Positions 4,098 through 20,718 of a stretch of DNA of 21,210 nucleotides are shown piece by piece. A program made the position numbers and the translations under genes. Under the pieces are notes generated by a model. It saw nothing but the letters and a program-made list of their open reading frames with translations. It was not told the origin of the DNA and searched no databases. The number at the start of each line of letters is the position of its first letter. Position 1 is the stretch's first letter. The DNA comes from Gammaproteobacteria bacterium (GTDB lineage: Bacteria; Pseudomonadota; Gammaproteobacteria; UBA6429), in the NCBI GenBank assembly GCA_003232015.1, contig QIKU01000251.1, positions 1-21,210 of the forward strand, given 5' to 3'.

Positions 4098-4162
4098 GGT
4101 TCTGTCGAACATATAGCTCGATCATCCTTATGGAGTTAATCGCTTAAGGATCTTCGTCCTGC

Positions 4163-4206: not shown

Positions 4207-4218
4207 GTTCGTTAGCGA

Positions 4219-5822: not shown

Positions 5823-5854
5823 ATTTTGATAGTTACGTCATAAATGTACCTTAC

Positions 5855-5860
5855 ATTATA
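5855..5860 (-). promoter_or_regulatory. -10 element of the hipBA-like operon
   Basis: The plus-strand ATTATA reads TATAAT on the minus strand, a perfect -10 hexamer 33 bases before the antitoxin start. A weak TTGCGC (5877-5882) sits 16 bases upstream and could be a poor -35. Confidence 0.45.
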
Positions 5861-5910
5861 GTAAAATTGACAAATAGCGCAAATAATAATGATGATATAT
5901 AAAACAATAA

Positions 5911-5947
5911 TTGATATTTTATCGATATATTTGATAAATATATCAAA
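5911..5947. promoter_or_regulatory. Palindrome cluster upstream of hipBA, candidate operator
   Basis: TTTGATA (5930-5936) and TATCAAA (5941-5947) form a perfect seven-base inverted repeat around AATA. TATCGATA (5920-5927) is an eight-base palindrome, and a further TTGATA is at 5911-5916. Another TTTGATA occurs at 5825-5831, next to the antitoxin start. Such clustered half-sites are what an autorepressing XRE antitoxin would bind, but the binding is inferred. Confidence 0.4.
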
Positions 5948-6015
5948 ATTAGGACAATTATAAGCGTGATATCTGAAAGCCAGTATGGATTAGGAGCTAC
6001 GGCGGGTACTATTCT

Positions 6016-6056
6016 TCAACAACTAGCCAAGGGGAGCTAGCCCTCACCCGTTGAAA
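6016..6056. repeat. Nested stem-loop of unknown function
   Basis: TTCAAC (6016-6021) pairs with GTTGAA (6051-6056), and inside it CTAGC (6024-6028) pairs with GCTAG (6037-6041). The inner loop is purine-rich and the 3' internal loop is pyrimidine-rich (CCCTCACCC). No T-run follows, so it is not an ordinary terminator for the plus strand. Confidence 0.35.
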
Positions 6057-6245
6057 AACCAGTGCGGCATTCAAATAGATAACGGCTTGCGTGTTATTAA
6101 GGTGTGTACCGAATTTTTTTCCGTTATGGGTTGAAAATACATGGTTTAGGTAATTGAGAAAATAAAGCAAAGACAAAAGTGACTTGATGATACTGCAAAG
6201 ACGATTCAGGCTTATAATGACTTTGTTGAGAGTGACGGATATTCA

Positions 6246-6353
6246 ATGATGGCATTTGAAATTTCTAATAAGTTATCTATCGTCTATAAAAACAGAAATT
6301 TCAATTCGCTGGAATTGCCATTTATGGTCATCAGCCATTACACTGTTGCTTGA
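6246..6353 (+). CDS. Possible short leader ORF before the permease gene
   Basis: A 35-codon frame starts at ATG 6246 with a weak GGA six bases upstream, and its TGA (6351-6353) overlaps the TTG start proposed for the permease (6350-6352). The peptide is of mixed composition and I do not recognise it. Codons continue open upstream to 6201 without a start. A perfect TATAAT at 6213-6218 would put a transcript start just before it. It could be a coupling leader, a remnant of a decayed gene or chance. Confidence 0.2.
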   Translation: MMAFEISNKLSIVYKNRNFNSLELPFMVISHYTVA

Positions 6354-7540
6354 CGCTATTTTACGGGGACAGGGATATCAAAGCTGAAAATCAGGTGACG
6401 TTATCCGATAGTAAAAACTGGTCGTTATCGATTAAGCCAATGGATATTACGACGCTGATTATAATACCTGAGGGTGACTGGCGGTTAAAAAATAGTCTGC
6501 CGGATGCTGACGGCCTTTACGCCTATCTTAATGATCACCCTGATGTTCAAAAACTTGATTTTGACTCGCTGCATGTCAGTCATTGGGATACCGGTTTTTG
6601 TATTTTTTTACTGAGTGTGATTGCGATAACAAAAACCTCCGGTATAAATATCGATCTGTCCGGTTTGCCGGAAGGCGTGCGTCGTCTGCTAACGTTGGCC
6701 ACGGCCGTACCACAGGCGGTAGACACAGGTCGTGATCAGCAGTCCACAGGTAGACTGGAAAAAATCGGCCAGGCCAGCATCGACTTTATCAGTGGTGTAC
6801 CGGCCGCATTGCACTTTCTCGGTGAAGCCACGTTGGCCTTTATTCAATTTTTTAAGGGCAAGGCACAATACAAACGCTCCGATCTGTTTTTGATTATTCA
6901 GGAGGTTGGCCCTAACGCTCTCCCGATTGTGAGCCTGATCAGTTTTCTGGTTGGGTTGATCCTTGCCTATATGGGCGCCGTGCAATTACAACAGTTTGGA
7001 GCACAAATATTCATCGCGGATCTGGTTGGTATTGGTATGGTTCGAGAAATGGCCGGATTAATGACAGGAATCATTATGGCGGGTCGATCTGGTGCGGCCT
7101 TTGCCGCCCGGCTGGGTACTATGCAGGTTAATGAAGAAATCGATGCACTAAAAACATTAGGCATTTCACCGATGGAGTATCTGGTTTTGCCTCGCATGCT
7201 GGCCCTGATCATAATGGTGCCGCTGCTTACCCTGTATGGCAGTATCGTAGGTATAATCGCCGGTATGGTCATTGCCGTATCGGCTTTTGATGTGACCGTA
7301 TATGAATATTACAATCAAACCCTGCGTGCCCTGGACATGCGGCAGATTCTGGTTGGTTTGAGCAAGGCATCTGTTTATGGTGTATTGATCGCCTTTGCCG
7401 GTTGTTTGCGAGGCATGCAATGTGGCCGTAGTGCCTCGGCCGTCGGTGAAGCCACAACCTCAGCTGTCGTGACCAGCATAGTATTAATCGTGGTGGCGGC
7501 TTCGATATTAACCATCATTTTTCAGGCACTTGGAATTTAA
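6350..7540 (+). CDS. STAS-MlaE fused ABC transporter permease (lipid transport)
   Basis: The protein (396 residues from TTG) joins an N-terminal STAS domain (about 25-115) to an MlaE permease domain (about 145-396, PF02405). In E. coli these functions are split between MlaB and MlaE; fused forms are common elsewhere. The permease carries the MVREMAGLMTGIIMAGRSG segment and the NEEIDALKTLGISP coupling loop that contacts the ATPase. It should sit in the inner membrane and move lipids with the MCE partner. The start is uncertain: TTG 6350 overlaps a preceding stop as TTGA, GTG 6395 is in frame, and neither has a good Shine-Dalgarno sequence. An ATG at 6440 would cut into the STAS domain. Confidence 0.88.
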   Translation: MTLFYGDRDIKAENQVTLSDSKNWSLSIKPMDITTLIIIPEGDWRLKNSLPDADGLYAYLNDHPDVQKLDFDSLHVSHWDTGFCIFLLSVIAITKTSGINIDLSGLPEGVRRLLTLATAVPQAVDTGRDQQSTGRLEKIGQASIDFISGVPAALHFLGEATLAFIQFFKGKAQYKRSDLFLIIQEVGPNALPIVSLISFLVGLILAYMGAVQLQQFGAQIFIADLVGIGMVREMAGLMTGIIMAGRSGAAFAARLGTMQVNEEIDALKTLGISPMEYLVLPRMLALIIMVPLLTLYGSIVGIIAGMVIAVSAFDVTVYEYYNQTLRALDMRQILVGLSKASVYGVLIAFAGCLRGMQCGRSASAVGEATTSAVVTSIVLIVVAASILTIIFQALGI

Positions 7541-7574
7541 TTGGCGCATAACGAATGAGTAACAGGTATTAAAT

Positions 7575-8363
7575 ATGATCGCTAACGCACAGCAAACATC
7601 TTCAGACCGTGTGCATATAAAGTTGCGTGATATCACTATGGCCTATGGTGATTTTGTTATCCAGCGCAATTTAAGCTTTGACATTAATCATGAAGATATT
7701 TTTATTATTATGGGTGGCAGTGGTTGTGGTAAAAGTACTTTGCTAAAATTGCTGATTGGTTTAAAAGAACCTGCTACAGGCGATATTGAATTTGATGGTG
7801 TCAATTTCTGGACTTCGCCGTTTGAAATACAGGATCAATTAAAGCATCGTTTTGGAGTTCTATTTCAAAGCGGGGCACTATGGAGCTCGCAGACATTGGC
7901 CGAAAATATCGCTTTACCGATTGAGGAATATACCGACTTAAGCGCAAAGCAGATAAACGAAGTGGTTGCCTACAAATTGGCGCTGGTGGGGCTGGCCGGT
8001 TACGAAGAATTTTATCCAGCCGAAATCAGTGGCGGCATGCAAAAACGTGCTGGCCTGGCACGTGCCATGGCATTAGACCCGGAAATATTATTTTTCGATG
8101 AGCCCTCAGCGGGGCTGGATCCAATTAGTGCCCGCAGGCTGGATGAACTGATACTGGAACTACGCGATAGCTTGAAAACAACGGTGGTGGTGGTTACCCA
8201 CGAACTCGCCAGTATTTTTGACATTGGTAACAATTCGGTTTTTCTGGATGCTGAAACCAAAACCATGATCGCCACAGGCGATCCTAATAAACTGCGAACC
8301 GATTGCACACAGGCAAAGGTATGCGAATTCTTAAACCGGGGGAAACATGAGCAAAAAAGCTAA
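7575..8363 (+). CDS. MlaF-type ABC transporter ATPase
   Basis: This 262-residue ATPase powers the lipid transporter of this operon from the cytoplasmic side. Walker A GGSGCGKST is at 47-55, the signature ISGGMQ at 151-156, Walker B ILFFDE at 171-176 and the switch His at 209 in VTHE. The FQSGALW stretch near 97-103, around the Q-loop, is typical of MlaF. It lies 34 bases after the permease stop, and its end overlaps the MCE gene by 17 bases, so the genes are co-transcribed. Confidence 0.92.
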   Translation: MIANAQQTSSDRVHIKLRDITMAYGDFVIQRNLSFDINHEDIFIIMGGSGCGKSTLLKLLIGLKEPATGDIEFDGVNFWTSPFEIQDQLKHRFGVLFQSGALWSSQTLAENIALPIEEYTDLSAKQINEVVAYKLALVGLAGYEEFYPAEISGGMQKRAGLARAMALDPEILFFDEPSAGLDPISARRLDELILELRDSLKTTVVVVTHELASIFDIGNNSVFLDAETKTMIATGDPNKLRTDCTQAKVCEFLNRGKHEQKS

Positions 8364-9279
8364 TCCCACAGCCATCGGTGCGTTTATCGTTGGTGCTATT
8401 ATCATTATTACCGTTTTGATCCTGTTACTAAGCAGTAAAATATTATTTAAAAAAGAAATAAAGGTGATCATGTATTTCGAAGGCTCGGTAACTGGGCTAA
8501 ACATTGGTGCGCCGGTCAAGTTTCGCGGTGTAAAAATTGGCACGGTTACCGGTATCAAACTAATCGTGAATAAACACACGGGAGTTATTGAGGTGCCGGT
8601 CGAGGCGGAGATTGATCGGAGCAGCTACCTGATTAAATTACAGGATAAAACGGTTAAAGCTAGCGAGATATTTTTCGATACAAGTCATATGATCGAAAAT
8701 GGTTTGCGCGCACAGTTAAAACTACAGAGCTTATTAACAGGCCAGTTATTTATCGAACTGGAATTCGATCCGGATTCCAGCTATAAATTGCGGGGTGATG
8801 GCACAGAAAAAGAGATTCCTACCAGCATCACCGCGATGCAGGAGATAACCCAAACTCTTGAAAAATACCCAATCTCCAAGGTGTTAAATAATATAGCTTC
8901 GACGATGGCCAGCATTGATAGAATAATGTCCGACCCGGTTATTCTTGAAACAGTCAAGTCGATAAATCAGACGTCAAAAGATTATGCGCTACTGGCTAAA
9001 CAACTTAGCACCGAAACAGCAATCATTTCCGTCAATCTTAAACGTACTTTAACTCAGGCTGAAAAAAGCTTTAAACAAGTTGATCAATCATTGACTGCAG
9101 TTGAGAAAACATTAAAGACCACCGATGGTGTGCTACGAGAAGATTCACAATTAATGAATTCATTACTGGATGCGTTAAACGAATTGGCAAGTGCTGCACG
9201 TTCGGTACGTACTCTGGCCGATACGCTAGAGCAACAACCAGAAGCCATCATTCGCGGTAAATCCGCTGGGGGAAATTAA
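8347..9279 (+). CDS. MlaD/MCE family substrate-binding protein
   Basis: A 310-residue MCE protein with one N-terminal membrane anchor (about 10-31) and one MCE domain (about 37-120, with the GAPVKFRGVKIGTV motif, PF02470). The remaining 180 residues are mostly helical with long heptad-like stretches, longer than in E. coli MlaD (183 residues) and suited to span part of the periplasm. MCE domains form hexameric rings that carry lipids. The ATG at 8347 has GGGGG five bases ahead, and the gene overlaps the ATPase gene. Confidence 0.9.
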   Translation: MSKKANPTAIGAFIVGAIIIITVLILLLSSKILFKKEIKVIMYFEGSVTGLNIGAPVKFRGVKIGTVTGIKLIVNKHTGVIEVPVEAEIDRSSYLIKLQDKTVKASEIFFDTSHMIENGLRAQLKLQSLLTGQLFIELEFDPDSSYKLRGDGTEKEIPTSITAMQEITQTLEKYPISKVLNNIASTMASIDRIMSDPVILETVKSINQTSKDYALLAKQLSTETAIISVNLKRTLTQAEKSFKQVDQSLTAVEKTLKTTDGVLREDSQLMNSLLDALNELASAARSVRTLADTLEQQPEAIIRGKSAGGN

Positions 9280-9280
9280 A

Positions 9281-9904
9281 ATGAGAACAGGGTTATTGTC
9301 ATTCAACAAAAACGTGGGTTTCTATTTGCTCCTTTTATATATACTCAGCATAACTGGATGTACAACGACAACGCCATCCCAATATTATTTACTAAGTCCA
9401 ATTCAGGATCCCGAACCTGCTTCGATACCGCATACCGAAAAAATACATATAATAGGCGTTGGTCCGATAAAATTTCCCAAGTATCTCAACCGATCACCGA
9501 TAGTTCGTTTTTCAGGTAGTAATAAGGTACTGGTAGATGACTTTAATCGTTGGGCTGAATCATTGGAACAAAATTTCTCAAGAGTGCTACGAATCAATCT
9601 AACGCGTTTATTGACATCAAGTTATGCTATAGAATATCCATGGAAGCGCGCAATGAATGTGCGCTATCAGATCATGCTGGAGGTTCATCAGTTTGAAACC
9701 GATTCCAGTGGCAACGTAAACCTGAGTGCGCATTGGGCGATTTTGAATCTGGCAGAAAATAAAAAAATAGAAGTCGTGAGAAAATTTAATTACAGTCAGA
9801 AACTTGACAGTATAACGTATGAGAAAATTGTCGCAGGCCAAAGCAGGGCGCTTGAGAAACTAAGTCAGAAAATTGCAGGAGAGATTAGTAAATTAGTATT
9901 CTGA
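9281..9904 (+). CDS. PqiC-like ABC-transport auxiliary lipoprotein
   Basis: This 207-residue protein carries a lipobox, ITGC, with the acylated Cys at 27 after a hydrophobic stretch. The YYLLSPI motif that follows and the overall length fit the ABC-type transport auxiliary lipoprotein family (PF03886), the family of PqiC. PqiC-like lipoproteins sit at the outer membrane and contact the MCE component. Its ATG follows the MCE stop after a single base, so it closes this four-gene operon. No MlaC-like periplasmic carrier and no MlaA are present, which agrees with a tunnel-type rather than shuttle-type system. Confidence 0.88.
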   Translation: MRTGLLSFNKNVGFYLLLLYILSITGCTTTTPSQYYLLSPIQDPEPASIPHTEKIHIIGVGPIKFPKYLNRSPIVRFSGSNKVLVDDFNRWAESLEQNFSRVLRINLTRLLTSSYAIEYPWKRAMNVRYQIMLEVHQFETDSSGNVNLSAHWAILNLAENKKIEVVRKFNYSQKLDSITYEKIVAGQSRALEKLSQKIAGEISKLVF

Positions 9905-9925
9905 GCCAGGTTTTTCGTGAAGAAT

Positions 9926-10918
9926 CTAAGATCCTGAAATTTTTGTCACATATCGTATCTTGGCCGAATAGTCTGTCTTATCGGTCTTCTGCATCTCAAG
10001 ATCAATGCGGCTTTGTTTTCTAAGTTGTGCGAACGGAATATCCGCTCGAATGGCGGCATAGTCATATAACATTTCGTCAATGTGTCCATTGACCACCAGG
10101 CGCCAGTCAAACGGCAGTCGATCGGGGTTGGCCTCGTTATGTAGTTGAATCGTCGAAGTGCAGTTCATACTCAAGGCGTGATAAAACTCCGGTTTTTTTA
10201 CCAGACGATTCATGTGCGCGACATAACTGCCCAACAAGGCTTGCATGCGCTCTTTATCCAGACCCTGGAGGCGATAGACATAAACTTCTTCTTTGCGAAT
10301 ATTTGTACGTAGATGAATCAAATCACGCTCATCGGCAGCGACATATGCCAATGTGTATTGTTTAAAGAAACCTTTAAGCGCAGAGTATTGTTGTGTCTTG
10401 TCTTTGCGGGTCTCTATCGATACCGCAAGGTAATCACCATTGGAAAATCCCCAGCTTAATATCGTATGGGCCATATGCGGCGACCCCCAATAGGATAAAA
10501 ACAAATCAAGTGACGTGATCTGAGCTAGATCATACTGCCGTGTTTCCCATTTTTCGGTGAAGTCGGTTTTTGTCTGGTAATCGAAGTTACGAACATTGTG
10601 TAAAGTCAGGTGGTTGTCCTTAATTAGACCGTATGGAATATTGGCGACCTCGACGGCCCAGTCTTTATCGTTACTCGGGCTTAACGTGCCCCACCAAACC
10701 AGTAAGACAAAAAACAATATAGCAAGTGGAATCATTGCCAGCCAGAGGGTATGGGTAAAATAGAAGGCGATAGGCGCTGCAATGATAAACAATACCAATA
10801 TGCTAATACGAATGACCGATGAGTCCGGTCCAGCATACGCGATGGACAGACTTCCCCAGATCCAGACAGGAGTCAGAATCAAAATAGTTAAAATACGCGA
10901 AATCATGCTATCAATCAT
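9926..10918 (-). CDS. DUF4105 (Lnb N-terminal periplasmic) domain membrane protein
   Basis: The 330-residue protein starts with three membrane segments (about 8-28, 38-54 and 58-77), followed by a soluble domain resembling DUF4105 (PF13387), the domain found at the periplasmic N-terminus of Lnb, a lipoprotein transacylase. His151 in AHTILSWGF and Cys253 in MNCTSTIQ are at places expected for a papain-like Cys/His pair, so an acyl-transfer or hydrolase activity is possible. It converges on the lipid-transport operon with a 21-base gap. No ribosome binding site is clear; an internal ATG four codons later is an alternative start. Confidence 0.78.
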   Translation of the reverse strand: MIDSMISRILTILILTPVWIWGSLSIAYAGPDSSVIRISILVLFIIAAPIAFYFTHTLWLAMIPLAILFFVLLVWWGTLSPSNDKDWAVEVANIPYGLIKDNHLTLHNVRNFDYQTKTDFTEKWETRQYDLAQITSLDLFLSYWGSPHMAHTILSWGFSNGDYLAVSIETRKDKTQQYSALKGFFKQYTLAYVAADERDLIHLRTNIRKEEVYVYRLQGLDKERMQALLGSYVAHMNRLVKKPEFYHALSMNCTSTIQLHNEANPDRLPFDWRLVVNGHIDEMLYDYAAIRADIPFAQLRKQSRIDLEMQKTDKTDYSAKIRYVTKISGS

Positions 10919-11253
10919 GTCATATTAAGTCAGTGTATGCCTGTATCAGGTCAAACAAAGATATTACGATATCAGGGTTGGAGCAAGTAGTACAACCCTG
11001 ACGTAAGCGTGAAAATGGCTAGTAGTTGTTTTGCGCACATTGCATGATTATCTCTTGTACAGTTCAATACATGCGTTCTGGTTTGATGATTTTCCTGTTA
11101 GCAGAGACTTTTTAGAATGTTTGGGCTTGTGTTTGTGCTGTAGCGGGTTAAAGTGGGTAAGTATACTACCAAAATAACACGGCGTGGTCGGTTGTAACGT
11201 ATTTATGACACATCGTTATTGTGGATTAAACGAAGCTGAAAAGGGGGCGAGCA
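10919..11253. other. Divergent control region
   Basis: This 335-base gap separates two genes reading outward. It holds a nine-base inverted repeat at 10972-11001. TATACT at 11162-11167 is a possible -10 for the plus-strand genes, without a good -35. No reading frame is convincing until the leader ORF at 11254. Confidence 0.4.
10972..11001. repeat. Perfect inverted repeat, possible operator
   Basis: TCAGGGTTG (10972-10980) pairs with CAACCCTGA (10993-11001) around a 12-base loop. Neither strand has a T-run after it, so it is more likely a regulator site or RNA hairpin in the leader of the minus-strand gene than a terminator. Confidence 0.4.
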
Positions 11254-11313
11254 ATGAGTAAAATAGTATCGGCTGAAAATAAATTTAACTTCATAGTCGA
11301 ATTCAAAATATGA
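11254..11313 (+). CDS. 19-residue leader peptide coupled to the repeat protein
   Basis: ATG 11254 is preceded by AGGGGG at 11242-11247, one of the strongest ribosome binding sites in the window. The frame runs 19 codons (MSKIVSAENKFNFIVEFKI) and its TGA (11311-11313) overlaps the ATG (11310) of the next gene as ATGA. The downstream gene lacks its own ribosome binding site, so ribosomes most likely reach it by termination and re-initiation after this peptide. Confidence 0.5.
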   Translation: MSKIVSAENKFNFIVEFKI

Positions 11314-12149
11314 TGGAAAAATACAACAAAGTTAGTTATATATTGGCCATTAGTCAATTTAGTCTGGCCGCGGCACTTGTCTACTTTGCGTTAGAATTTT
11401 CTCGCGTAGCTACACAGATCCCTGAAATACTATCGAGTGTGGAAACAACCAGCGAAAAGATTGAACCTGTGCTAATTGAAATAGGGGAGATTCGTGCGCA
11501 AATCCCGTCGGTATTAAAAGAAGTCAAAGAAATACGTAAATTAATCTCGCCGGTACTGGACGAGGTGAAACTCGTGCGAGAACAACTTCCCGCCGTTCTT
11601 ACCGAAGTTAAAGAGGTTCGAGAGCAGATTCCAGTGCTGCTTGCCGAGGCTAAGGCAGTTCGAATTATCGTTCCGGATGTGCTGAAGGAAGTGAAGCGTA
11701 CACGCGAAGCTATTCCGCCCATGCTGGCGCAGGGGGAACGAATGATTGGCGCGGCCAGTAAGGCGGGTAGGCGCGCAAGCGAGGGTGCGATTACCGGGGT
11801 GATTACCGGCATACTTAAAGCTCCCTTTAATCTAATTGGTGGTCTTGGACGGTCTATGTTTGGAGCGTCGGCTGAAAAAATTAAAGGATTAACTGAAGGT
11901 GATGAGAACATGGCCGCTCGAACGGCCGTGGCGATTCTGGCCGCTGGGAAACTAGGCGAATCACGTAACTGGAATAATTCCGATAGTGGTAATGACGGCA
12001 CGGTGACAATAAAAGAAGTTAAGTTGATTGGCGGTGACGAATGCCGTGTCATAAACAATGTCGTCAGGATTGATGGAGAAGAAAAAATAAATACTGATGT
12101 CACTGCCTGCCTGAATGATAAATTAGAGTGGGAAATGTTTTATAGATAA
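11310..12149 (+). CDS. Membrane-anchored protein with eight 14-residue repeats
   Basis: I do not recognise this 279-residue protein. Residues about 9-29 form one membrane segment. Residues 37-148 are eight tandem 14-residue units with the pattern (I/L/V)PxVLxEVKxVRxQ, two heptads each, predicting a long helix or coiled coil with a Pro at the start of most units. A Gly-rich hydrophobic stretch (about 159-188) could be amphipathic or membrane-associated. The C-terminal 55 residues look beta-rich and hold two Cys (245 and 267), which could form a disulphide if the domain is periplasmic. The start codon is entered through an ATGA overlap with a leader peptide. A structural or membrane-scaffold role is a guess from the shape. 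Confidence 0.8.
   Translation: MMEKYNKVSYILAISQFSLAAALVYFALEFSRVATQIPEILSSVETTSEKIEPVLIEIGEIRAQIPSVLKEVKEIRKLISPVLDEVKLVREQLPAVLTEVKEVREQIPVLLAEAKAVRIIVPDVLKEVKRTREAIPPMLAQGERMIGAASKAGRRASEGAITGVITGILKAPFNLIGGLGRSMFGASAEKIKGLTEGDENMAARTAVAILAAGKLGESRNWNNSDSGNDGTVTIKEVKLIGGDECRVINNVVRIDGEEKINTDVTACLNDKLEWEMFYR
11418..11753 (+). repeat. Eight 42-bp coding repeats
   Basis: Each 42-base unit encodes one 14-residue repeat of the protein above. The period is exact with no insertion over 336 bases. The DNA units differ at many codon positions, so this is an old, selected protein repeat rather than a recent tandem duplication. Confidence 0.8.
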
Positions 12150-12170
12150 TCGCCATCTCAAAATTATAGA

Positions 12171-12266
12171 ATGAAAAAGTATAAAATTCGCCTGAACAGT
12201 ATATTTCTTGTTTATGCTGGACTATCAGGGATGCTCATCGTTATGTGTAACCCCTCCCAGTTTTAA
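12171..12266 (+). CDS. Possible small hydrophobic peptide
   Basis: A 31-codon frame starts with MKKYKIRLN and then turns hydrophobic (SIFLVYAGLSGMLIVMC) before a short polar end. The shape resembles a small membrane peptide or an incomplete lipoprotein signal, but the residues before Cys26 (LIVM) do not make a proper lipobox. There is no Shine-Dalgarno sequence, so translation is doubtful. Confidence 0.2.
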   Translation: MKKYKIRLNSIFLVYAGLSGMLIVMCNPSQF

Positions 12267-12322
12267 CCCGCATATATGAGTCTTACGTTTGAATACCCTC
12301 TGGGTTTTTATTTGAGTGCTGT

Positions 12323-12344
12323 TTATAACTGGAATGGTTATAAT
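12323..12344 (+). promoter_or_regulatory. -10 element inside an inverted repeat
   Basis: TTATAAC (12323-12329) and GTTATAA (12337-12343) form a perfect seven-base inverted repeat around seven bases. A perfect TATAAT (12339-12344) overlaps its right arm and could be the -10 of the gene at 12399. A regulator bound here would block the promoter. The nearest TTGAGT (12312-12317) is 21 bases from the -10, too far for a good -35. Confidence 0.4.
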
Positions 12345-12398
12345 AGAGCATAAAGACTAACAGGATTTTATATAGAAAAGTGATAAAGGGGAGGCAAC

Positions 12399-12977
12399 AT
12401 GTTTTTTCAAAGTATACTCATGCGTGTAAAACGATTGGCGGGAATGCATAAGGTGGTCGGTGGTTTAACTCGCGAGTTTTGGGTCGGCCATTTACTGGTC
12501 ATGATTTCAACCGTTTTAGGGGTCTATTTAGCCGCACATTCAGGCTTGAAGACGGCCGTTAAATTTGATGCGCTATCGTCAGATCGTGATAATTATTATT
12601 TGCGCGCTAATTTACGTGATGAAGTTCGTTACAATATTACTATTGCTGAAAAATTTATTGTGACCATTAATAAAATCGGCTCTTTTCATCGCAGTAATTA
12701 TCCTTCATTTCAAACCTATGTATTGGAAACTATGAAAGAACAATCAAATACATTAAAAACACCAAATGTGATTTTAAATGGCACACTGCAATATTATGAT
12801 CGAATAGATTATTTGCTTGATAAGAAAAGATCTGGTGGCATTAATGTCCTGCTATTAGCAAAGAAATTGCGTAAAGAAATTGATAAATATAATAGAAATG
12901 TAATGACTAAATTGGATAAAAATCTGCTGGATCTCAAAAAGCGACTGGATGACAATAATGTAGTTATTTATGAATAA
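12399..12977 (+). CDS. Unknown single-pass membrane protein
   Basis: I do not recognise this 192-residue protein. A basic N-terminus is followed by one membrane segment at about residues 27-48 (FWVGHLLVMISTVLGVYLA), then about 140 mostly helical, charged residues rich in Lys, Asn and Asp. No catalytic motif is visible. The ribosome binding site GGGGAGG (12388-12394) is strong and four bases from the ATG. The broken MAPEG gene follows after 21 bases, probably on the same transcript. Confidence 0.7.
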   Translation: MFFQSILMRVKRLAGMHKVVGGLTREFWVGHLLVMISTVLGVYLAAHSGLKTAVKFDALSSDRDNYYLRANLRDEVRYNITIAEKFIVTINKIGSFHRSNYPSFQTYVLETMKEQSNTLKTPNVILNGTLQYYDRIDYLLDKKRSGGINVLLLAKKLRKEIDKYNRNVMTKLDKNLLDLKKRLDDNNVVIYE

Positions 12978-12998
12978 AATATATTAGAGGGTATACCA

Positions 12999-13434
12999 AT
13001 GGAGTCGAGGATAATTCTTTATTCTTTGCTATGCATGTTTTTATTAACGGTTATCATTGGAATGCGCATGTTGCAATTGCGTTTTCGGGCGGTCTTAAAA
13101 GATAAATTGCATCCCGGTTATTTTAAGCTTAACCGGGGTGCAAAATTACCTGATTACCTGATTACCTGATTATCTGGTTCAGATAACTCAGCACTACGAA
13201 AATTTATATGAAACGCCAGTGTTGTTTTATGTGATCGTCATACTGGCCTACATATTGAAAGTAGTCGATGTGGTGACGATTACTCTGGCCTATGGTTATG
13301 TTATCACTCGTGCTATCCATGCTCTGATACATATAAATAGTAATAAGGTTCGGCAGCGTAGAAACATATTTTTAGTCAGCATTATTTTTCTTACGTTATT
13401 GTGGATATACGTGTTTATAAGTCTTGTAGATTAA
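12999..13434 (+). pseudogene. MAPEG family membrane protein, frameshifted by an 8-bp repeat expansion
   Basis: The first part (12999-13169) starts at an ATG with AGAGGG seven bases upstream and encodes a membrane segment followed by FKLNRGAKLPDYL before a TGA at 13167-13169. The second part, in the +1 frame from about 13162, continues with YLVQITQHYENLYETPVLFY and three membrane segments to TAA 13434. Joined, they give a normal MAPEG protein (PF01124) of about 140 residues; the NRG and HYENLxExPVLFY motifs are hallmarks of the bacterial MAPEG group. The break lies exactly in the ATTACCTG tandem repeat. Removing two units (16 bp) restores the family sequence. The rest is intact, so the lesion is recent or reversible. 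The 3' end overlaps metA tail-to-tail by 20 bases. Confidence 0.8.
13145..13176 (+). repeat. 8-bp tandem repeat (ATTACCTG), three perfect units plus one variant
   Basis: Units lie at 13145-13152, 13153-13160 and 13161-13168, followed by ATTATCTG at 13169-13176. The expected MAPEG sequence needs only one ATTACCTG plus the variant unit. The two surplus units add 16 bases and shift the frame. Confidence 0.9.
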
Positions 13435-14488
13435 GAGGGTTGTTTATATCAATGCCGTCTTGAAAAGGTTTGTCTCTTTCTACGTGTGTTAAAAGATACA
13501 CTTGTCCTAACCAATTATTAATAATAGCTTCTGCGCTGTCATGCCAGGTATTATTTATATGAGGTTCAATTATCGTTTCAGGAAACTCAGGCAGGCTTTG
13601 CTTATTTAGTCTGGCCAAAGTTACTTGTTCCTGGAATTCATTTAAAATCGCCTGTGCCTGAACACTAAGATAATTCTCAGGGAAGGGAGGGTAATCACTT
13701 ATGACACTATTGAAATAATTCAGGACTTCACGTTTGTATTCTTTTAGTAAGCTAATTGAGTCGTATTCTGGGTGGCCCTGGAAAAAAATCAGACGAAATT
13801 GATCTTCACTTACAGCTAAATGCACATCGGCTTGTTCACTTTCTACTAATATATGTAGATTAGAATCCAGGAACTGTTGCCGGTCAATTTGATTGAAGCG
13901 TGAATGGGGAACGTCAAACTGTGTGTTTACACCTGTGACGAGTGGATGTTTACGTTGTACCACATTATGTGGATAAACGCCCCAGCGCTTAAAGCCTAAA
14001 GGACGACGCTTTTGTTGATAGCGAAATTCTAAAACAGCATGTGTTGCTAGACAGGAGCAGAGTGTTGATGTTACGTTTTCATAAGCCCAGTCGATCACTT
14101 CAATTAAGGGTTGCCAGAAGGGTTCATTCGATAAGTTCGGTTCAGTTACGTTTGCACCGGTAATAATCAAGGCATCCAGTCCGGCTGCCTTTATTTCCTG
14201 AAAACTTTCATAATAGTTATCCACGTGAGCCTGTCCTGCTGCGTTTCGTTTAAGGCAGGGAATGCTAAAGGGATGAATGTAAAATTGAGCAATCTGGTTG
14301 CTTTCACCGATAAGACGGAAAAATTGCCGCTCGGTAGCCTCGAGCGCGGCATCGGGCATCATGTTTAACAGGCCAATATGCAATTCGCGAATATCCTGCG
14401 ATAAGGCATCTTTGTTGGCGAGCACATTCCCGCCTTCCTGTAACAGGCGAGAAAAACTGGGTAATTTTGAATGGGCAACCAGCGGCAT
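13415..14488 (-). CDS. metA: Homoserine O-succinyltransferase
   Basis: This 357-residue enzyme of the HTS family (PF04204) activates homoserine with an acyl group, the first dedicated step of methionine synthesis, in the cytoplasm. The nucleophile is Cys146 in CSCLATH, matching Cys142 of E. coli MetA, and the acid/base residues are His239 and Glu241 in QGHPEYD. ELHIGLLNMMPDAALEATERQF near the start and VPHSRF at 193-198 are family hallmarks. Succinyl rather than acetyl donor is assumed from the subfamily; family members differ by single residues. It starts nine bases after a P-loop gene and is probably co-transcribed with it. No SAM riboswitch or Met box is visible. Confidence 0.9.
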   Translation of the reverse strand: MPLVAHSKLPSFSRLLQEGGNVLANKDALSQDIRELHIGLLNMMPDAALEATERQFFRLIGESNQIAQFYIHPFSIPCLKRNAAGQAHVDNYYESFQEIKAAGLDALIITGANVTEPNLSNEPFWQPLIEVIDWAYENVTSTLCSCLATHAVLEFRYQQKRRPLGFKRWGVYPHNVVQRKHPLVTGVNTQFDVPHSRFNQIDRQQFLDSNLHILVESEQADVHLAVSEDQFRLIFFQGHPEYDSISLLKEYKREVLNYFNSVISDYPPFPENYLSVQAQAILNEFQEQVTLARLNKQSLPEFPETIIEPHINNTWHDSAEAIINNWLGQVYLLTHVERDKPFQDGIDINNPLNLQDL

Positions 14489-14497
14489 TTACAGAAC

Positions 14498-15331
14498 CTA
14501 TAAGGCTTTTTCGATCAATTGTAGAAACTCGTCAGCCGTTTCAATTTGCCAGAGATCAGTGGTGTGAATAGTATAGCCATATTGCTTTGCTATTGATTCA
14601 TAGCGAGGTATACGAGTTTTAAATAGTTTAGGGAATACCCAGCGCACAAAATCATCGGGTTCGATCATTGCGACATATTGCAGCTGCTTCTCTTTAAGAT
14701 ATACTTCAAGTTGTTCGTCAAGAAAGGCTTCACGGTAATAAAGTGGTTTAGGCTCCGATTCTGCCCGACGAATTAATTCCTGTTCATCATTTTCGGTGGC
14801 CTTGATATAGATAAGCAGGGTATGTTCAGCCAGGATCTCCAGAGTTTTGGGATCGTCCAGTTCACAGACACTGCCGCCAGCATCATTAATAAAATGCTGA
14901 TAGCCGTAAATGCTCTGAGCTTTATCAATAAAACTTGGTACATCACGCATCGCTTCGATCTCGGCCCGATGGTGCAATGCTTGGCGGCGTTTAAACTCCG
15001 CCAGTGGTAGGCCATCGTGATCAGGATTGCCGAGTTTGCCGAGAAAACTGGACACAGGTTGAAGGTTGTCGACGGTGATATTATTGGATATAAAAATTGA
15101 ATCGTTACGCAGGAGATCACGCAAAAAAGGAATTTTCATCACCTGAGTTTTGATATTATCCAGGATGGGTTCATCCAGATAGCGCGTGCCAATACGGTAA
15201 TCACCTGAAAAATGAAACCAGTCGTGTTTACGCAACAAATCTGCCAGTCGAGTCTTACCGACCCCTGACATGCCCAGCAGAGTGATGGATTTATGCTGCC
15301 AATTCCGAAATTGTTCAATATTCAGTTTCAT
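14498..15331 (-). CDS. P-loop NTPase of unknown role upstream of metA
   Basis: A 277-residue cytosolic protein with a Walker A motif GMSGVGKT at 20-27. A hydrophobic strand ending LLIYIKA (about 193-199) and an RRAESEPKPLYYREAF segment suggest a nucleotide kinase-like fold with a lid region. I cannot name the substrate. It begins with a good ribosome binding site (GGAG, seven bases before the ATG) and lies nine bases ahead of metA, so a link to methionine metabolism or its control is possible but only positional. Confidence 0.75.
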   Translation of the reverse strand: MKLNIEQFRNWQHKSITLLGMSGVGKTRLADLLRKHDWFHFSGDYRIGTRYLDEPILDNIKTQVMKIPFLRDLLRNDSIFISNNITVDNLQPVSSFLGKLGNPDHDGLPLAEFKRRQALHHRAEIEAMRDVPSFIDKAQSIYGYQHFINDAGGSVCELDDPKTLEILAEHTLLIYIKATENDEQELIRRAESEPKPLYYREAFLDEQLEVYLKEKQLQYVAMIEPDDFVRWVFPKLFKTRIPRYESIAKQYGYTIHTTDLWQIETADEFLQLIEKAL

Positions 15332-15351
15332 TTCAAGCTCCTATAGGCCGT

Positions 15352-15381
15352 ATTGTATGTGCATAGCCAGGTAAAAGACAA
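15352..15381 (-). promoter_or_regulatory. Candidate promoter of the P-loop/metA operon
   Basis: On the minus strand TTGTCT (15381-15376) and TACAAT (15357-15352) are separated by 18 bases. Transcription would start about 14 bases before the ATG, leaving just enough leader for the GGAG site. Confidence 0.45.
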
Positions 15382-15464
15382 TTCTTAAGACTGATTTCGG
15401 CAGCGAATGGTGGCAGGCTTATGCTAGGATAGTGGTGAAGTTAAGGGTGTGTTGAGTTTTAGCT

Positions 15465-16622
15465 ATGAAACGATTTTTGGTCTTTATCGTCATCTGGATT
15501 GGTTTTATCTTGGCCGCGACGGCACTTACTGAGGTGTCAAAAATTCAACAGGCGGAAATTATACCGGTAGAGACGGAACGTGAACAATCCGATCACCCTG
15601 TAATAGTCAAATTAAAGCAGGCCTTAGCCGATCAAAATTACCTCTCTGCGCTTGCTATTATTGATGCGGAGCATAAGTATTTTGCTAATCTACCTGACTC
15701 TGATGATTTTCAGGCGTACCAGTTTTTTTATCTAAAAGGGCATGTTCATTCTTCCTTGTGGCAACATCTGGAGGCAGCCAAGAGCTGGAAATTTGCGTTG
15801 AACTTTGCCAGTAACAATGACGAAAAGAAACGTCTTAATCGCCTGGTGGCGGCAAACCGCCTGCTGGTTGATGATATCAATGAAGAGCGCATGCTAAATT
15901 CCATTTACCGTGCAACACCGCGTACCGGCCCCGCCGCAATATTAAATGGCAAGATTGCGGTTGTATATGTTTTTTTAACCGACGGTGCTTTGCAAAACTG
16001 GAGTCTACGCAAACGAGATTTTGTACTGAGCAACTGGGCAATAGCTGAACAATGGCTGACATTAAATTCAAAAAAATACGAATCTAAAATTCATTTTTCG
16101 CGGCGAATATTTTTAGTCGATAAAAATCCGTACATAAAAAGGCTACAGGTTGGCGATTTTGACAGCCAGAACCAGCATGCGGGTAAGGTGGCTAGCCTGG
16201 TTGCTGAGCATTTTGGTTTTGATGATATTATGTCATTTATAGAAAAAATTAAAAAAGATGAACAGGCCGATCAGGCAATACTACTATTTCATCTTGCACG
16301 TGATGGACGCTCATTCGCGCAACGTTGTGTTTATGAGTGCAATGAAAGTGCCGAATATGTGTATTTAATGGAAGCACCATCTTCAAAACGCGGTAACTTC
16401 ATGAATTATGCTCAGGCCCATGAAACGTTGCACCTATTTGGGGCGGATGATCTTTATAATATCCATGGGGCAAAATATTATGTAGTTCGAGATATTATGA
16501 ATTATCCTGCCAGTGTGCTGGGGGCAAATACTCTGGAACCGATTACGGCATATGCGGTGGGAATATATGATAAAAAACCTAAGGCACCATTTGATATTCA
16601 ATCTATTTCGAGGAGTCAATAA
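15465..16622 (+). CDS. Putative exported metzincin-like zinc metalloprotease
   Basis: I do not recognise a named family for this 385-residue protein. Residues 4-21 form a signal peptide or anchor. Residues about 45-145 are helical and TPR-like. The C-terminal half has a zinc-protease signature: HETLHLFGADD at 319-329 gives the HExxHxxGxxD ligand set (His319, His323, Asp329 or Asp328) with catalytic Glu320, and DIMNYP at 343-348 supplies a Met345 turn as in metzincins. Two Cys (288 and 292) precede the motif. A periplasmic or surface protease is the likely role. The DUF350 gene starts directly after its stop codon, so the two are one transcript. Confidence 0.75.
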   Translation: MKRFLVFIVIWIGFILAATALTEVSKIQQAEIIPVETEREQSDHPVIVKLKQALADQNYLSALAIIDAEHKYFANLPDSDDFQAYQFFYLKGHVHSSLWQHLEAAKSWKFALNFASNNDEKKRLNRLVAANRLLVDDINEERMLNSIYRATPRTGPAAILNGKIAVVYVFLTDGALQNWSLRKRDFVLSNWAIAEQWLTLNSKKYESKIHFSRRIFLVDKNPYIKRLQVGDFDSQNQHAGKVASLVAEHFGFDDIMSFIEKIKKDEQADQAILLFHLARDGRSFAQRCVYECNESAEYVYLMEAPSSKRGNFMNYAQAHETLHLFGADDLYNIHGAKYYVVRDIMNYPASVLGANTLEPITAYAVGIYDKKPKAPFDIQSISRSQ

Positions 16623-16850
16623 ATGGAAATCACCACTCTTAGTCAAACGCTATTAAATTTATTAATTAGTTTAAGTTACGCTATTATTACGCTGATCGTC
16701 AGTGTAACAACGTTGTATATGATTGATCATTTTTTCTATAAAAAAATTGATTTTATCGAAGAGATAAAAAACGGTAACATTGCTGCAAGTATTTTCTACA
16801 GTGTAATCCTGTTGTTTGTTGCCATTATTGTAACGATCTCGATAAATTAA
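16623..16850 (+). CDS. DUF350 family small membrane protein
   Basis: A 75-residue protein with two membrane segments (about 10-34 and 50-73) joined by a loop with IDFIEEIKNGNIAASIF, the signature of DUF350 (PF03994, YjfL type). The function of the family is not established. The ATG follows the stop of the metalloprotease-like gene directly, with AGGAG (16611-16615) seven bases ahead inside that gene, so translation of the two is tied. Confidence 0.8.
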   Translation: MEITTLSQTLLNLLISLSYAIITLIVSVTTLYMIDHFFYKKIDFIEEIKNGNIAASIFYSVILLFVAIIVTISIN

Positions 16851-16854
16851 CAAA

Positions 16855-16890
16855 GGGCACTGCACGGAATTAATTTCATGTGCAATGCCC
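16855..16890. terminator. Stem-loop between converging genes
   Basis: GGGCACTGCACG (16855-16866) pairs with TGTGCAATGCCC (16879-16890) with 10 of 12 matches around a 12-base AT-rich loop. On the minus strand it is followed by a T-rich stretch (TTTGTTAATTT), so it best serves the SoxY-like gene ending at 16925; on the plus strand no T-run follows, but it lies right after the DUF350 stop. Confidence 0.5.
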
Positions 16891-16924
16891 CTGCACCACG
16901 ATATTAATAATCTGTATCGGATAG

Positions 16925-17404
16925 TTATAATTTATTACAAATACGAGGTGCGTTGCCTGACGTATTTACTGCGCCACCTCCGCCACAGCCCCCAATGGTA
17001 ACTTTGATATAACTTTGACCGCCAATAATTTCGCCGCTATCAAGTTTGGCAACGGCATAGATGTTGCTACTTTCGCGTAAACGGAAACGAGTCTTCAGAT
17101 TAGTGCTTTTCGTGTTTTGCGAAAAAGTAAAGGTTGCAATTGGCTCCTTGCGGAATTCATTGTAAAAGCTTAATTCTTTTACGAACTCTCCTTTCTTCAA
17201 ACCTTCAATACTACGTATACCGACCCCAACAACCGAACCGTCCTCGGCAATGTCCGGGGTACTTAGTATTATACGATTAGCACTAATTGATTTATTACCA
17301 TAGTTCTTGCTGATACAGCCTGGCAGTGTTTTCTGCGCGGCTACTGCAGTACCAGCAAAGATGGAAAAAATCATAAAACTCAGTAAGTAGGTTATATTTC
17401 TCAT
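16925..17404 (-). CDS. SoxY-like periplasmic sulfur-carrier protein
   Basis: From the ATG at 17404 the protein has 159 residues: a signal peptide (1-22, AVA cleavage site) and a SoxY-type domain (PF13501) with ISANRIILSTPDIAEDGSVVGVGI at about 40-63 and KVTIGGCGG at 134-142. In SoxY the Cys of the terminal GGCGG arm (here Cys140) carries the sulfur substrate. Two differences stand out: the motif is not at the C-terminus but is followed by 17 more residues including Cys156, and no soxZ or other sox gene is nearby. The frame is open upstream to 17509, but the ATG at 17404 is chosen because GGAG lies seven bases ahead and a signal peptide follows. Its neighbour upstream carries a TlpA thioredoxin domain, a plausible redox partner. 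Confidence 0.75.
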   Translation of the reverse strand: MRNITYLLSFMIFSIFAGTAVAAQKTLPGCISKNYGNKSISANRIILSTPDIAEDGSVVGVGIRSIEGLKKGEFVKELSFYNEFRKEPIATFTFSQNTKSTNLKTRFRLRESSNIYAVAKLDSGEIIGGQSYIKVTIGGCGGGGAVNTSGNAPRICNKL

Positions 17405-17466
17405 GTTAGTCTCCTTATTGTGTACGACAATTATTGTATTGCAGACACTGTGCCAACAACTGAACT

Positions 17467-17482
17467 CACATGGATTCATGTG
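17467..17482. repeat. CACATG-GATT-CATGTG inverted repeat upstream of the SoxY-like gene
   Basis: Six-base perfect arms around GATT. Another CATGTG is at 17507-17512. The site lies about 65 bases before the SoxY-like start, where a promoter would be, so it may be an operator; no matching regulator is known to me. Confidence 0.3.
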
Positions 17483-17573
17483 CTTAGCAATGTTAATGGT
17501 TGAATGCATGTGAAGTAGTCATACAATATGCATGATGAATTTGCAGTGTGCAGGAAAATAAAAAAGGGTTAAA

Positions 17574-18866
17574 TTAATAGAAAGAATTTAATAATGAAAT
17601 GACGTCATCTGCGTCCCACTGAATAGCCGCGTTCACTCCATAGTGAATTTTTCCATCGGGGCCAATGATAAATGTGGAAGGAAAGGCAACTACATTCCAT
17701 TTTTTAGATATCATCCCATCTTTATCCAGTAATACCGGGAACTCAACATTAACGCGCTTTAAAAAAAGGTCGATCGTTTGAGATGTTTCTGCATAGTTAA
17801 TCGAGATTAATTCAAAGGGTTTGTCTTTCATCTTTTGGCGAAGTCGGTTTAACGAGGGGATCTCTTCCACACAAGGTGGACACCATGTAGCCCAGAAATT
17901 TACTACAGTTACTTTTCCCTTAAAGTTATTCATCACAACGGTATTGTTATTGCTATCTTTTAGGATGAAGGGAAAAGGTGTTTTTTCTCCCTTGAATGTT
18001 TTAATCCGGTTATTCATCAGGGACTTATATTGAATTTTTTTATCTGGACGATATTTTGTGGGGGGTAAAAAATCGGTGTTACTTTGTAAAAGATTTATTA
18101 CACCGGGAATTAATCTGGGTAAGCGGTTTAGCATTTTGCTTACTAAGGGATCATTATCTTCATTATAAAAAATACCAGCTACCCCAGGCATATACATGAA
18201 ATAAATATGCTGGTTTGACTCTGATAATGCTTTTAATAAGCGCGGGAATTGCCAGGCTGAACCCCGTCGCTTAGCCTGAAAAATAAAAGTGGGTATGGTG
18301 GTTTGGTGGGTTATTGGTAAATATTCTGGATGCAGGCCGAGTTCCGGAATGGATTCAAAAAAGTCTGGAGAGAAAAGAATGGCTCCCAACAGGTATTTCT
18401 TATACGGATTTTGCTGTTGCCATAAGCTTGCCCCACGCATAACCGGGATAGCACCATAGGCCCGCGACAGCAGGACTATTTTTTTATTCGTTTTCTGATG
18501 CGCCGCCGAAATAAGATCAGCAACGTACTGTGCATTCAAATTCCGCATAAAATTTGAAGTTTTTGGCTCAAATAAAATTTCGGAGAAATCGACCTGCCAT
18601 ACTTCAAGATTGTTTTTTGCTAAGCGATGTGCCGTTTTATAGGCACGTTCTGAAAAATTGTAGCTTGAGCCAACCCAGATGATCAAAGTATCTCCCCGTG
18701 CAGGGTAATGCGAAACGATCATTTCGGTTTGATCATGGGCTTCAATACTGAGCTCTAATTCAGAAACAAGGTCAAGAGGATTGGCAGATACCAGTAAGCT
18801 GATGCTATATAAGATACCGGTAGATAAGAGATACAGGCTTTTTAGCCAACGGAGCGGGATGGACAT
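17574..18866 (-). CDS. Exported fusion: VirJ-like alpha/beta-hydrolase domain plus TlpA-type thioredoxin domain
   Basis: The 430-residue protein has a signal peptide or anchor (about 8-28). Residues about 50-265 look like an alpha/beta-hydrolase resembling the VirJ/AcvB type. Residues about 295-430 form a TlpA/ResA thioredoxin-like domain with WCPPC at 328-332 and the cis-proline in AFPST (Pro396). In the hydrolase half, the nucleophile elbow reads LSRAYGA (133-139) where GxSxG is expected, so Ala136 replaces the Ser and the domain is probably non-catalytic, perhaps a binding module. The thioredoxin half is complete. It lies 13 bases after the phosphatase gene and before a SoxY-like gene, which could be the thiol substrate. 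I know of no characterised protein with this architecture. Confidence 0.8.
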   Translation of the reverse strand: MSIPLRWLKSLYLLSTGILYSISLLVSANPLDLVSELELSIEAHDQTEMIVSHYPARGDTLIIWVGSSYNFSERAYKTAHRLAKNNLEVWQVDFSEILFEPKTSNFMRNLNAQYVADLISAAHQKTNKKIVLLSRAYGAIPVMRGASLWQQQNPYKKYLLGAILFSPDFFESIPELGLHPEYLPITHQTTIPTFIFQAKRRGSAWQFPRLLKALSESNQHIYFMYMPGVAGIFYNEDNDPLVSKMLNRLPRLIPGVINLLQSNTDFLPPTKYRPDKKIQYKSLMNNRIKTFKGEKTPFPFILKDSNNNTVVMNNFKGKVTVVNFWATWCPPCVEEIPSLNRLRQKMKDKPFELISINYAETSQTIDLFLKRVNVEFPVLLDKDGMISKKWNVVAFPSTFIIGPDGKIHYGVNAAIQWDADDVISLLNSFY

Positions 18867-18879
18867 GAGATAAGAGTAT

Positions 18880-19683
18880 TTATTGATGTCTGAATAGTAT
18901 AAAGGTCAGGTCATCTGGATGACAGGGGAGATTGTCTGCTTTTTCACGCATTCGGTGTTGTGCCAGCGTAACTAACTGCCTGGCGGCGTACTCTAAATCC
19001 CCTTTTCGTATTAAATCAGTAATCTCTGACAAATATAGATTATCAAATAATCCGTCACTGGCAACGATTACGGTATCATGTTTATCGAGTACCCGCTGAC
19101 TACCAATTTCTATGCTCATATCCTCCGCGCCCACAACATTAGAAATTAAGTGGCGCTCTTCATGATGAATAGCTTCATCTTCATCAAGCAGGCCTGACTC
19201 GACGGCGTATCCGACAGGAGAATGCGCAATCGATTGCAGTTTGATCTTGCCTCGTTGACCGCAGACCAGAATCATAGAATCGCCGATATGAAAGGGGCGT
19301 ACTTGATTTGCCTGAATTTCTATTGCCGCCAGCGTCGTTGCGGCACCACCGGATTGATTAAGAATTTGCTGATTGGCTTTTTCAATGCCATCCAGAATAG
19401 CTTCACGTAATGATATGTTGGCTGAACGGGCCTTTGTTATCGAGTTTGAAATGGATTCGATGGCGGTTCTCGACGCTGTTTCACCATTGGGCAGGCCACC
19501 TAATCCATCGGCTATGACTAACACTCCAGAAGTAGAATCATAAGAAATTAATGCGGCACAATCTTCATTGACAGTATCTTTATCCGGTGAACGATGAGTA
19601 TACAATACTGCAGTGCCACCGGCGAAATCCAGCCGTATAGGTTTATCTAAATCCGTTTGTGTGTAGCCGTTATTTTGAGTCAG
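18880..19683 (-). CDS. PP2C-family serine/threonine protein phosphatase
   Basis: This is a cytoplasmic PP2C phosphatase. Numbering from TTG 19605, the metal-binding set is visible: Glu14-Asp15 (VNED), Asp33-Gly34 (IADGLGG), Asp184-Gly185 (VASDGLFDN) and Asp232 (HPDDLTF); GGAATTLAA and HIGDSM are also present. The start is unsettled. TTG 19605 gives 241 residues but has no ribosome binding site and trims the first strand. The frame is open upstream and encodes a protein-like stretch (DKPIRLDFAGGTAVL), and a CTG at 19683 has AAGGGA seven bases ahead, giving 267 residues; I use that. The gene follows the kinase in the same frame, one TAA apart. It probably reverses the phosphorylation made by that kinase. 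Confidence 0.82.
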   Translation of the reverse strand: MTQNNGYTQTDLDKPIRLDFAGGTAVLYTHRSPDKDTVNEDCAALISYDSTSGVLVIADGLGGLPNGETASRTAIESISNSITKARSANISLREAILDGIEKANQQILNQSGGAATTLAAIEIQANQVRPFHIGDSMILVCGQRGKIKLQSIAHSPVGYAVESGLLDEDEAIHHEERHLISNVVGAEDMSIEIGSQRVLDKHDTVIVASDGLFDNLYLSEITDLIRKGDLEYAARQLVTLAQHRMREKADNLPCHPDDLTFILFRHQ

Positions 19684-19701
19684 AGTTCTATCCCTTATGG
19701 T

Positions 19702-20430
19702 TTACCAACGCATGGTTTCAATATATTCACGCAACTGGGCCGCACTGCGAAATTTCTTCAGGATAAGACTTCGTTTTTGGCCATTAATAATATCTTTTAC
19801 CGCCTTAGCTTGTTTAGCGTAATGCTTTTGCCCACCTAATATCTCATGGAAAATTCTTACCATCTCTACGGTATCATCCTGGATTGCGGTACGTTTTGAC
19901 GAGGGTGATTGAAACAGGTCAACTAATTTCATATCAAACCCCAATCCATACCGTTGTAGAATAATATTGTCGGTATGCAGGTCACCGTGATATTCACCAA
20001 TTCGGTGTACGGCCTCCATGCCGCAGGCGAGCGCATGCAAAACATGCAAAGCCTGATAAGGCTGTAGGCGTTTACCCGGTTGTCGGTTGACGAATTGACT
20101 TAGTAATTCGCCTTCAACGTATTCCGAAATGAGTAAGGTCACCGGGATACCTTTTACGGTAATCTGATCTTGAGCACTGTATTGAATGACGATCGGACAA
20201 TGACGTAGTTTATGCAATTTCTTGGCATAAAATTTAACGGCTTTGTCACGAGGATTACGTTGCGGAAAAAACAGTTTGGCGGTCCGTTCTATGCCGGTTG
20301 CAACTTCTCGCACAAGATAAACTTCGCCTTCCCAGCCGCCACCCAGCAAGGATATGACTTCATATTTTCGGGCTAAAATTCGTCCGGCTGCGAGATTAAA
20401 GTGGTCTATTTTTGAGTCTGTAACCGCCAT
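19702..20430 (-). CDS. Hanks-type serine/threonine protein kinase
   Basis: A 242-residue kinase made of a catalytic domain only, with no membrane segment or sensor. The Gly-rich loop is LGGGWEGEV at 29-37, the ATP-binding Lys is 52 (TAK), the catalytic loop is HGDLHTDN at 148-155 with Asp150 and Asn155, and the metal-binding DFG is changed to DLF at 171-173. The HGDLHTDN form resembles the kinases of the ABC1/RIO-like and atypical bacterial groups. Length is near the minimum for this fold. It leads a minus-strand operon with the PP2C phosphatase and the hydrolase-TlpA fusion. The substrates are unknown. Confidence 0.82.
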   Translation of the reverse strand: MAVTDSKIDHFNLAAGRILARKYEVISLLGGGWEGEVYLVREVATGIERTAKLFFPQRNPRDKAVKFYAKKLHKLRHCPIVIQYSAQDQITVKGIPVTLLISEYVEGELLSQFVNRQPGKRLQPYQALHVLHALACGMEAVHRIGEYHGDLHTDNIILQRYGLGFDMKLVDLFQSPSSKRTAIQDDTVEMVRIFHEILGGQKHYAKQAKAVKDIINGQKRSLILKKFRSAAQLREYIETMRW

Positions 20431-20718
20431 GGCTTTATTCTATGCTGCAATTCCATGTTTAGCTAGCCAGTATAGATATCAAATTCTGTTTAAAATTGAA
20501 TTAAACGGGCATATTTAGTTTTTAACTAAATGCATTCGTGAGTGTATTTTACTTACGAGTTTATCTCATTCCGCACGAGTAATATTACCATATGGTAATT
20601 AACAAAGCCGAAGCACAATGTCATTATTATTCGCAATATTCCCCGTTGCTCGCTACTATGAATACAACTTGTATGAAGACCGATTGTAAAAATCAGCTGC
20701 GATCTGGAGGGTAGATTT
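20431..20718. promoter_or_regulatory. Divergent control region with two palindromes
   Basis: This 288-base gap lies between the kinase and hydrolase genes, which read outward. It contains ATTTAGTTTTTAACTAAAT at 20513-20531 (eight-base arms, TTT loop) and the 16-base perfect palindrome ATTACCATATGGTAAT at 20584-20599. Both look like sites for dimeric regulators. I see no gene in it. Confidence 0.45.

Follow-up and report, generated by a model that had tools for sequence, protein, structure and literature searches.

Short repeats within coding sequences are known slippage hot spots, among them a 6-bp repeat of three units in mutL (PMC2955026) and the CTGG site of lacI (PMC3485313). In Salmonella and Escherichia coli, mutL is reported to be inactivated, in a way that can revert, by changes in the copy number of this repeat, and these changes are attributed to slipped-strand mispairing (PMC2955026). 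Where repeats are searched for on a larger scale, the unit number required depends on the unit: a review of phase variation describes cut-offs that differ by unit length (PMC11868660), and an SSR screen of Neisseria meningitidis is described as using a search cut-off of 3 units for units of 6-10 nt (PMC5084427). The GeneTack study of frame transitions assigns a cluster to phase variation when at least five of its genes are broken, the repeats are characteristic and the function has previously been associated with phase variation (PMC3711429).

We analysed a stretch of DNA of 21,210 nt (hereafter the window) in which an 8-bp tandem array divides a MAPEG gene between two reading frames. The array resembles the mutL site in being a short coding repeat of three units. 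It differs in that the functional mutL allele has three units and a 6-bp unit that stays in frame, whereas functional MAPEG relatives have two units and the frame is shifted here; and the mutL alleles were observed to interconvert in cultured mutator strains but not detectably in non-mutators (PMC2955026), whereas the MAPEG array is known from sequence alone. Like the lacI CTGG site, a frameshift hot spot at which units are both gained and lost, it consists of a few tandem units in coding sequence, although lacI is a laboratory mutational target with a 4-bp unit and not a natural allele (PMC3485313). As in the SSR phase-variable genes of N. meningitidis, a tandem repeat lies in an ORF and unit number sets the frame, with the cut-off just reached; unlike those genes, the MAPEG unit has a stop in every frame and its array comes from one strain (PMC5084427). 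With the GeneTack frame-transition clusters the locus shares a frame break in a conserved gene beside a tandem repeat, as well as some truncated relatives (PMC3711429). Set against the phase-variation class of that study (PMC3711429), the window copy is the only one whose DNA shows the MAPEG repeat, and a limited literature search found no link of function; for these reasons, and because the number of broken relatives is uncertain, we keep the case for now with indels and pseudogenes.

A MAPEG gene in two frames

The features of the locus are given below in window coordinates; G001 and G007 are two genomes of the closest genus.

12399..12977, plus strand: upstream neighbour, a 192-aa protein with no Pfam match above the gathering score; it adjoins MAPEG in G001 and G007 too
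12999..13169, plus strand: first half of the MAPEG gene, ATG to TGA, 56 aa, ending ...GAKLPDYLIT*, recognised by homology to N-terminal pieces
13145..13176, plus strand: 8-bp tandem array, ATTACCTG three times followed by ATTATCTG, from TRF and the sequence
13159..13161, plus strand: TGA closing the second-half frame on its upstream side, within the array, from the sequence
13162..13434, plus strand: second half of the MAPEG gene, LPDYLVQ... to TAA, recognised by its PF01124 match and 82% identity to G001
13167..13169, plus strand: TGA terminating the first half, within the array, from the sequence
13415..14488, minus strand: convergent neighbour, homoserine O-succinyltransferase (HTS, PF04204; metA), from Pfam

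The initial annotation had proposed that the halves of a MAPEG protein lie in different frames and that the switch falls at an 8-bp array of three perfect units and one variant; TRF and the frames confirm both points. TRF reported a period of 8 with 4.0 copies (95% matches, score 57), the top score among its five rows for the window, and the two open frames overlap at 13162-13166 only, the second running to a TAA at 13432-13434. That this is a real MAPEG gene is likewise upheld: positions 13174-13431 match PF01124 (E 4.4e-13, profile positions 54-128 of 129) at 49.9 bits, which, being above the gathering cut-off of 23.4, places the product in the family. The first half alone had no Pfam match at E<=0.01; it shares 77-86% identity with the N-terminal pieces of P0002, P0003, P0004, P0006 and P0007, the five closest full-length homologues, and 41-71% with those of P0008-P0012. 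NCBIfam gave no name for any MAPEG piece, and a PDB sequence search returned one chance-level row and nothing else. By eye, an AGAGGG lies at 12986-12991, 7 nt 5' of the ATG at 12999.

Outside the array, the gene had been described as undamaged. This stands in so far as neither half contains any other stop, but not at the 3' end (13410-13434), which exceeds that of G001 and G007 by 1 nt and reads ISLVD* where they have VKL* or IKL*. We regard this length change as mild because more distant relatives also differ at the 3' end. With MAPEG 1 nt longer and metA ending NPLNLQDL in the window, the two convergent 3' ends overlap by 20 bp.

The pure 8-bp repeat translates as IT*LPDYL in each of the three frames. 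Since the TGA stops are part of the array and every unit brings a stop in every frame, extra units cannot reopen the MAPEG gene, and the suggestion that gain of one unit would restore the frame fails on the in-frame TGA inside the array.

Arrays of period 8 with at least three perfect copies were absent from 200 first-order Markov simulations of the window, which served as the null, and from 1,206,185 bases of relatives, namely 80 loci round metA (L001-L080, not whole genomes) that represent the best 80 of 570 homoserine O-succinyltransferase relatives. Among the other periods from 4 to 12, the same loci held 15 arrays of period 4, three of period 5, three of period 7 and one of period 9, and none of the remaining periods. 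The zero counts in the simulations and in the 1.2 Mb of loci rule out a chance origin of the array. There is also no sign of an SSR-rich genome: the window holds a single array of this kind, and the relatives' 1.2 Mb round metA lack any of period 8.

The closest relative by homoserine O-succinyltransferase, among the best 80 of 570, is L001, a locus of G001 from an uncultured Ectothiorhodospiraceae bacterium (89% identity; the second-ranked locus has 76%). The sequence is not known to come from any controlled pathogen. By blastn the window aligns with L001 in three collinear blocks within 12383-21209 at 74-77% identity, and window positions 1-12382 have no blastn match in L001 (12092-21062); collinearity ends just upstream of the 192-aa gene. 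Elsewhere in the window, a pair of genes with HTH (PF01381) and HipA_C (PF07804) domains at 4219-5822 on the minus strand has what we take to be the layout of a HipBA-type toxin-antitoxin module. At 16925-18866, on the minus strand, a SoxY-domain protein (PF13501) adjoins a protein with a C-terminal AhpC/TSA thioredoxin-like domain, a neighbourhood that would suit a sulfur-oxidising lineage.

Unit number and break points among relatives

Both G001 and G007 have the order 192-aa gene, MAPEG, metA, with an intact MAPEG gene of 137 aa. In both, the LPDYL codons span the length of two units (GTTACCTGATTATTTA in G001, GTTGCCTGATTATTTA in G007), so that the window, at +16 bp, is exactly two units longer. 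Counting units in related genomes, a check put forward in the initial annotation, thus gives two in G001, two in G007 and four in the window by DNA. Its reading of the family sequence as one unit plus the variant is borne out in length by these genomes, and their intact orthologues of two-unit length agree with its claim that a 16-bp tandem expansion disrupted the frame. An intact syntenic orthologue in close relatives, here in G001 and G007, is also what characterises a recent pseudogene or indel.

The window's last two units are alike at 7/8 positions, and the corresponding stretches at 4/8 in G001 and 3/8 in G007. Across 40 loci (L107-L146), of which 26 gave no regex match, likeness of the two stretches in the motif phase was 0-4 of 8 in 14/14 regex-found copies, among them those of G001 and G007; in five of these copies, which have PPEYL, the phase was anchored one codon early. 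Because the units are 7/8 alike in the window and 0-4/8 alike in these 14 copies, the slippage substrate seems to depend on the codon choice of the lineage. In L122 an adjacent pair of 8-mers that is 7/8 alike lies a few codons upstream of the motif, outside the motif phase and without expansion.

Besides P0005, which is the window's own, and the truncated P0013, a protein search with the second half listed 10 full-length relatives, 12 proteins in all. The full-length relatives have 137-146 aa and all carry a precomputed PF01124.24 assignment, P0007 being the MAPEG copy found in G007; their best identity to the second half is 80%, compared with 82% for G001 and 92% for P0013 over only 30% of the query. 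The first half found two proteins, P0013 and P0014 (86-87% identity over 70-77%), and a further search gave 16. No second sample of this species was among the protein-search matches, and a pattern scan of viral contigs found no two-unit form. Among genomes, 12/40 at family level match the second half at E<=0.001, and the order-level search gave the same 12/40. At class level there were 33 matches in 31/369 genomes, drawn from a larger group; none has an internal stop, and the one in G086 is partial, from residue 52 on. No truncated copy like P0013 or P0014 was among the matches listed at any of these three levels.

The homologues judged by eye to be truncated are P0013, P0014, P0016, P0017, P0018 and P0019, with several break sites, and some may be sequencing errors; the truncation of P0015 may be a contig edge. 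The 50-aa P0014 comes from a hydrothermal vent metagenome (source name MNBD_GAMMA21-1875, on which a limited literature search found nothing) and reads ...GAKLP and then GSGESALRESI. The GSGESALRESI part corresponds to what the window encodes out of frame when read from the array's final base (gene nt 178, position 13176). With each tail compared in nine frames (three sources with three frames each), the P0014 tail scored 29 against the window, where the best of 200 shuffles scored 26; against G001 it exceeded the best shuffle narrowly (25 vs 24) and against G007 it did not rise above the shuffles. The P0013 tail scored 23, the same as its best shuffle (23), and so showed no excess. Judging from the protein, the simplest account of P0014 is that one 8-bp unit was apparently lost at the array position.

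P0013 (74 aa, a cluster of three members on two contigs) has the motif intact and breaks about 25 residues later. By eye it shows two differences from P0014 over about 39 shared residues, and the lesions of the two differ; both begin at an internal methionine, and their ancestor may therefore already have been damaged upstream. P0018, at 63% identity over 88% of the query on a 610-bp contig, appears by eye to owe its break near the motif to a small indel and not to a unit change, and P0016, P0017 and P0019 are cut, again by eye, at points other than the LPDYL motif. The LPDYL site may recur as a break point, and other break points exist in the relatives.

Constraint and dispensability

Counted over 132 codons, with the motif codons excluded and 27 three-way sites set aside, lineage-unique nonsynonymous and synonymous changes number 12:28 in the window, 7:31 in G001 and 14:22 in G007. 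On these counts the window gene, lying within the range of its intact relatives, shows no sign of relaxed constraint, and since it is no outlier the break looks recent relative to the divergence, in agreement with the earlier view of a recent event. Values of dS among the three are saturated (1.5-2.9 or not computable), which makes close dating impossible.

In G008, a member of the same genus, the 192-aa gene and metA are present with other genes between them and no MAPEG: tblastn with both pieces gave nothing convincing (best E 0.60), and the genome search had no match either. Because G008 keeps both neighbours without it, MAPEG is dispensable in the group. The G008 gap (L100, 1351-2897) holds a DUF302-like gene and a cytochrome-c-like gene on the other strand, as named by eye from the translation. 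G006 has no match to MAPEG, metA or the 192-aa gene and is therefore uninformative.

Explanations for the frame break

We think that a dispensable gene for a MAPEG-family membrane protein has probably lost its function here, recently and through slipped-strand expansion. The LPDYL codons in this lineage would have happened to form two near-identical 8-bp units (ATTACCTG followed by ATTATCTG, 7/8 alike), and replication slippage, in one or two steps, would then have added two copies of the first unit, or 16 bp, so that a ribosome would stop at the TGA inside the array after 56 residues. This account starts from what the sequences show: an array dividing the gene between two frames, intact syntenic orthologues that have two units, and no nonsynonymous excess over intact relatives. 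We infer from this that the ancestor had two units, that the mutation arose by slippage, that function was lost and that the unit change was incidental rather than a selected switch. A loss by slippage would in principle be reversible. Several observations count against this reading. The break of P0014 at the same place would be more recurrent than random decay predicts, a switching gene would likewise show no relaxed constraint, and saturation of dS makes the dating weak. L122 has its 7/8 adjacent pair without expansion, and P0018, which breaks close to the motif by a small indel, also dilutes the case.

A true slipped-strand phase-variable (contingency) locus, at which unit number toggles MAPEG within a population, seems unlikely to us. 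The properties of such a locus claimed in the initial annotation are weakly supported. In favour, a frame-changing tandem array lies inside an ORF with both sides well conserved, P0014 has apparently changed by one unit in the opposite direction at the array position, and the array just reaches the cut-off of 3 that the meningococcal screen gives for 6-10 nt units (PMC5084427). However, added units cannot open the frame, the TGA belonging to the repeat, and the sole open form seen has two units, in both of the close genomes read as DNA (G001 and G007), which is below that 3-unit cut-off for 6-10 nt units as given there (PMC5084427). Moreover, MAPEG is absent in G008, such arrays are rare in the group (the 1.2 Mb round metA hold none of period 8), and the truncated P0013, P0016, P0017 and P0019 break elsewhere by eye. 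Phase variation with more than one open state is ruled out, the repeat carrying a stop in every frame. A limited literature search found nothing linking MAPEG to phase variation. It is similarly doubtful that the LPDYL motif is a latent 8-bp slippage site that goes out of frame both ways, with four units here and apparently one fewer in P0014; MAPEG would then be a gene of stochastic loss and regain in an uncultured gammaproteobacterial clade, and the locus an example, from free-living bacteria, of a membrane metabolism gene under phase variation.

We also consider it improbable that the array is an assembly or sequencing artefact and that the true genome has a different unit number. The array is known from one contig, which the window appears to cover in full, with no further sample of the species among the search matches, but at 32 bp it is shorter than ordinary reads, a clean gain of 16 bp in exact units is unlike the usual homopolymer error of long reads, and the flanking ORFs at 12399-12977 and 13415-14488 are open.

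Steady decay of an old pseudogene, which would fit the second length change in the window lineage (1 nt at the 3' end) and the repeated loss or truncation among relatives, is very improbable given a lineage-unique N:S within the range of intact relatives and no further stops in either half. Survival of expression by recoding, through a +1 shift at ACC-TGA (13164-13169), or by downstream re-initiation to give a MAPEG product is just as hard to credit: the frames overlap at 13162-13166 directly before the TGA, and a +1 slip there would therefore join them, but the intact G001 and G007 orthologues do not need it, the array contains no Shine-Dalgarno-like stimulator by eye, the gene has no run of at least six A/T or at least five G/C, and the first ATG, GTG or TTG of the second frame, at 13219-13231, would give a product without the N-terminal part.

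If loss by slippage, the reading we prefer, is all that happened here, the locus illustrates that a conserved amino-acid motif can, through codon choice, hide a direct repeat that sets the break point of a gene. Frame switches of this kind are usually described in pathogen surface genes. Were mixed unit numbers to occur in the source population, the array would take phase variation beyond that setting, to a membrane-associated enzyme of an environmental bacterium.
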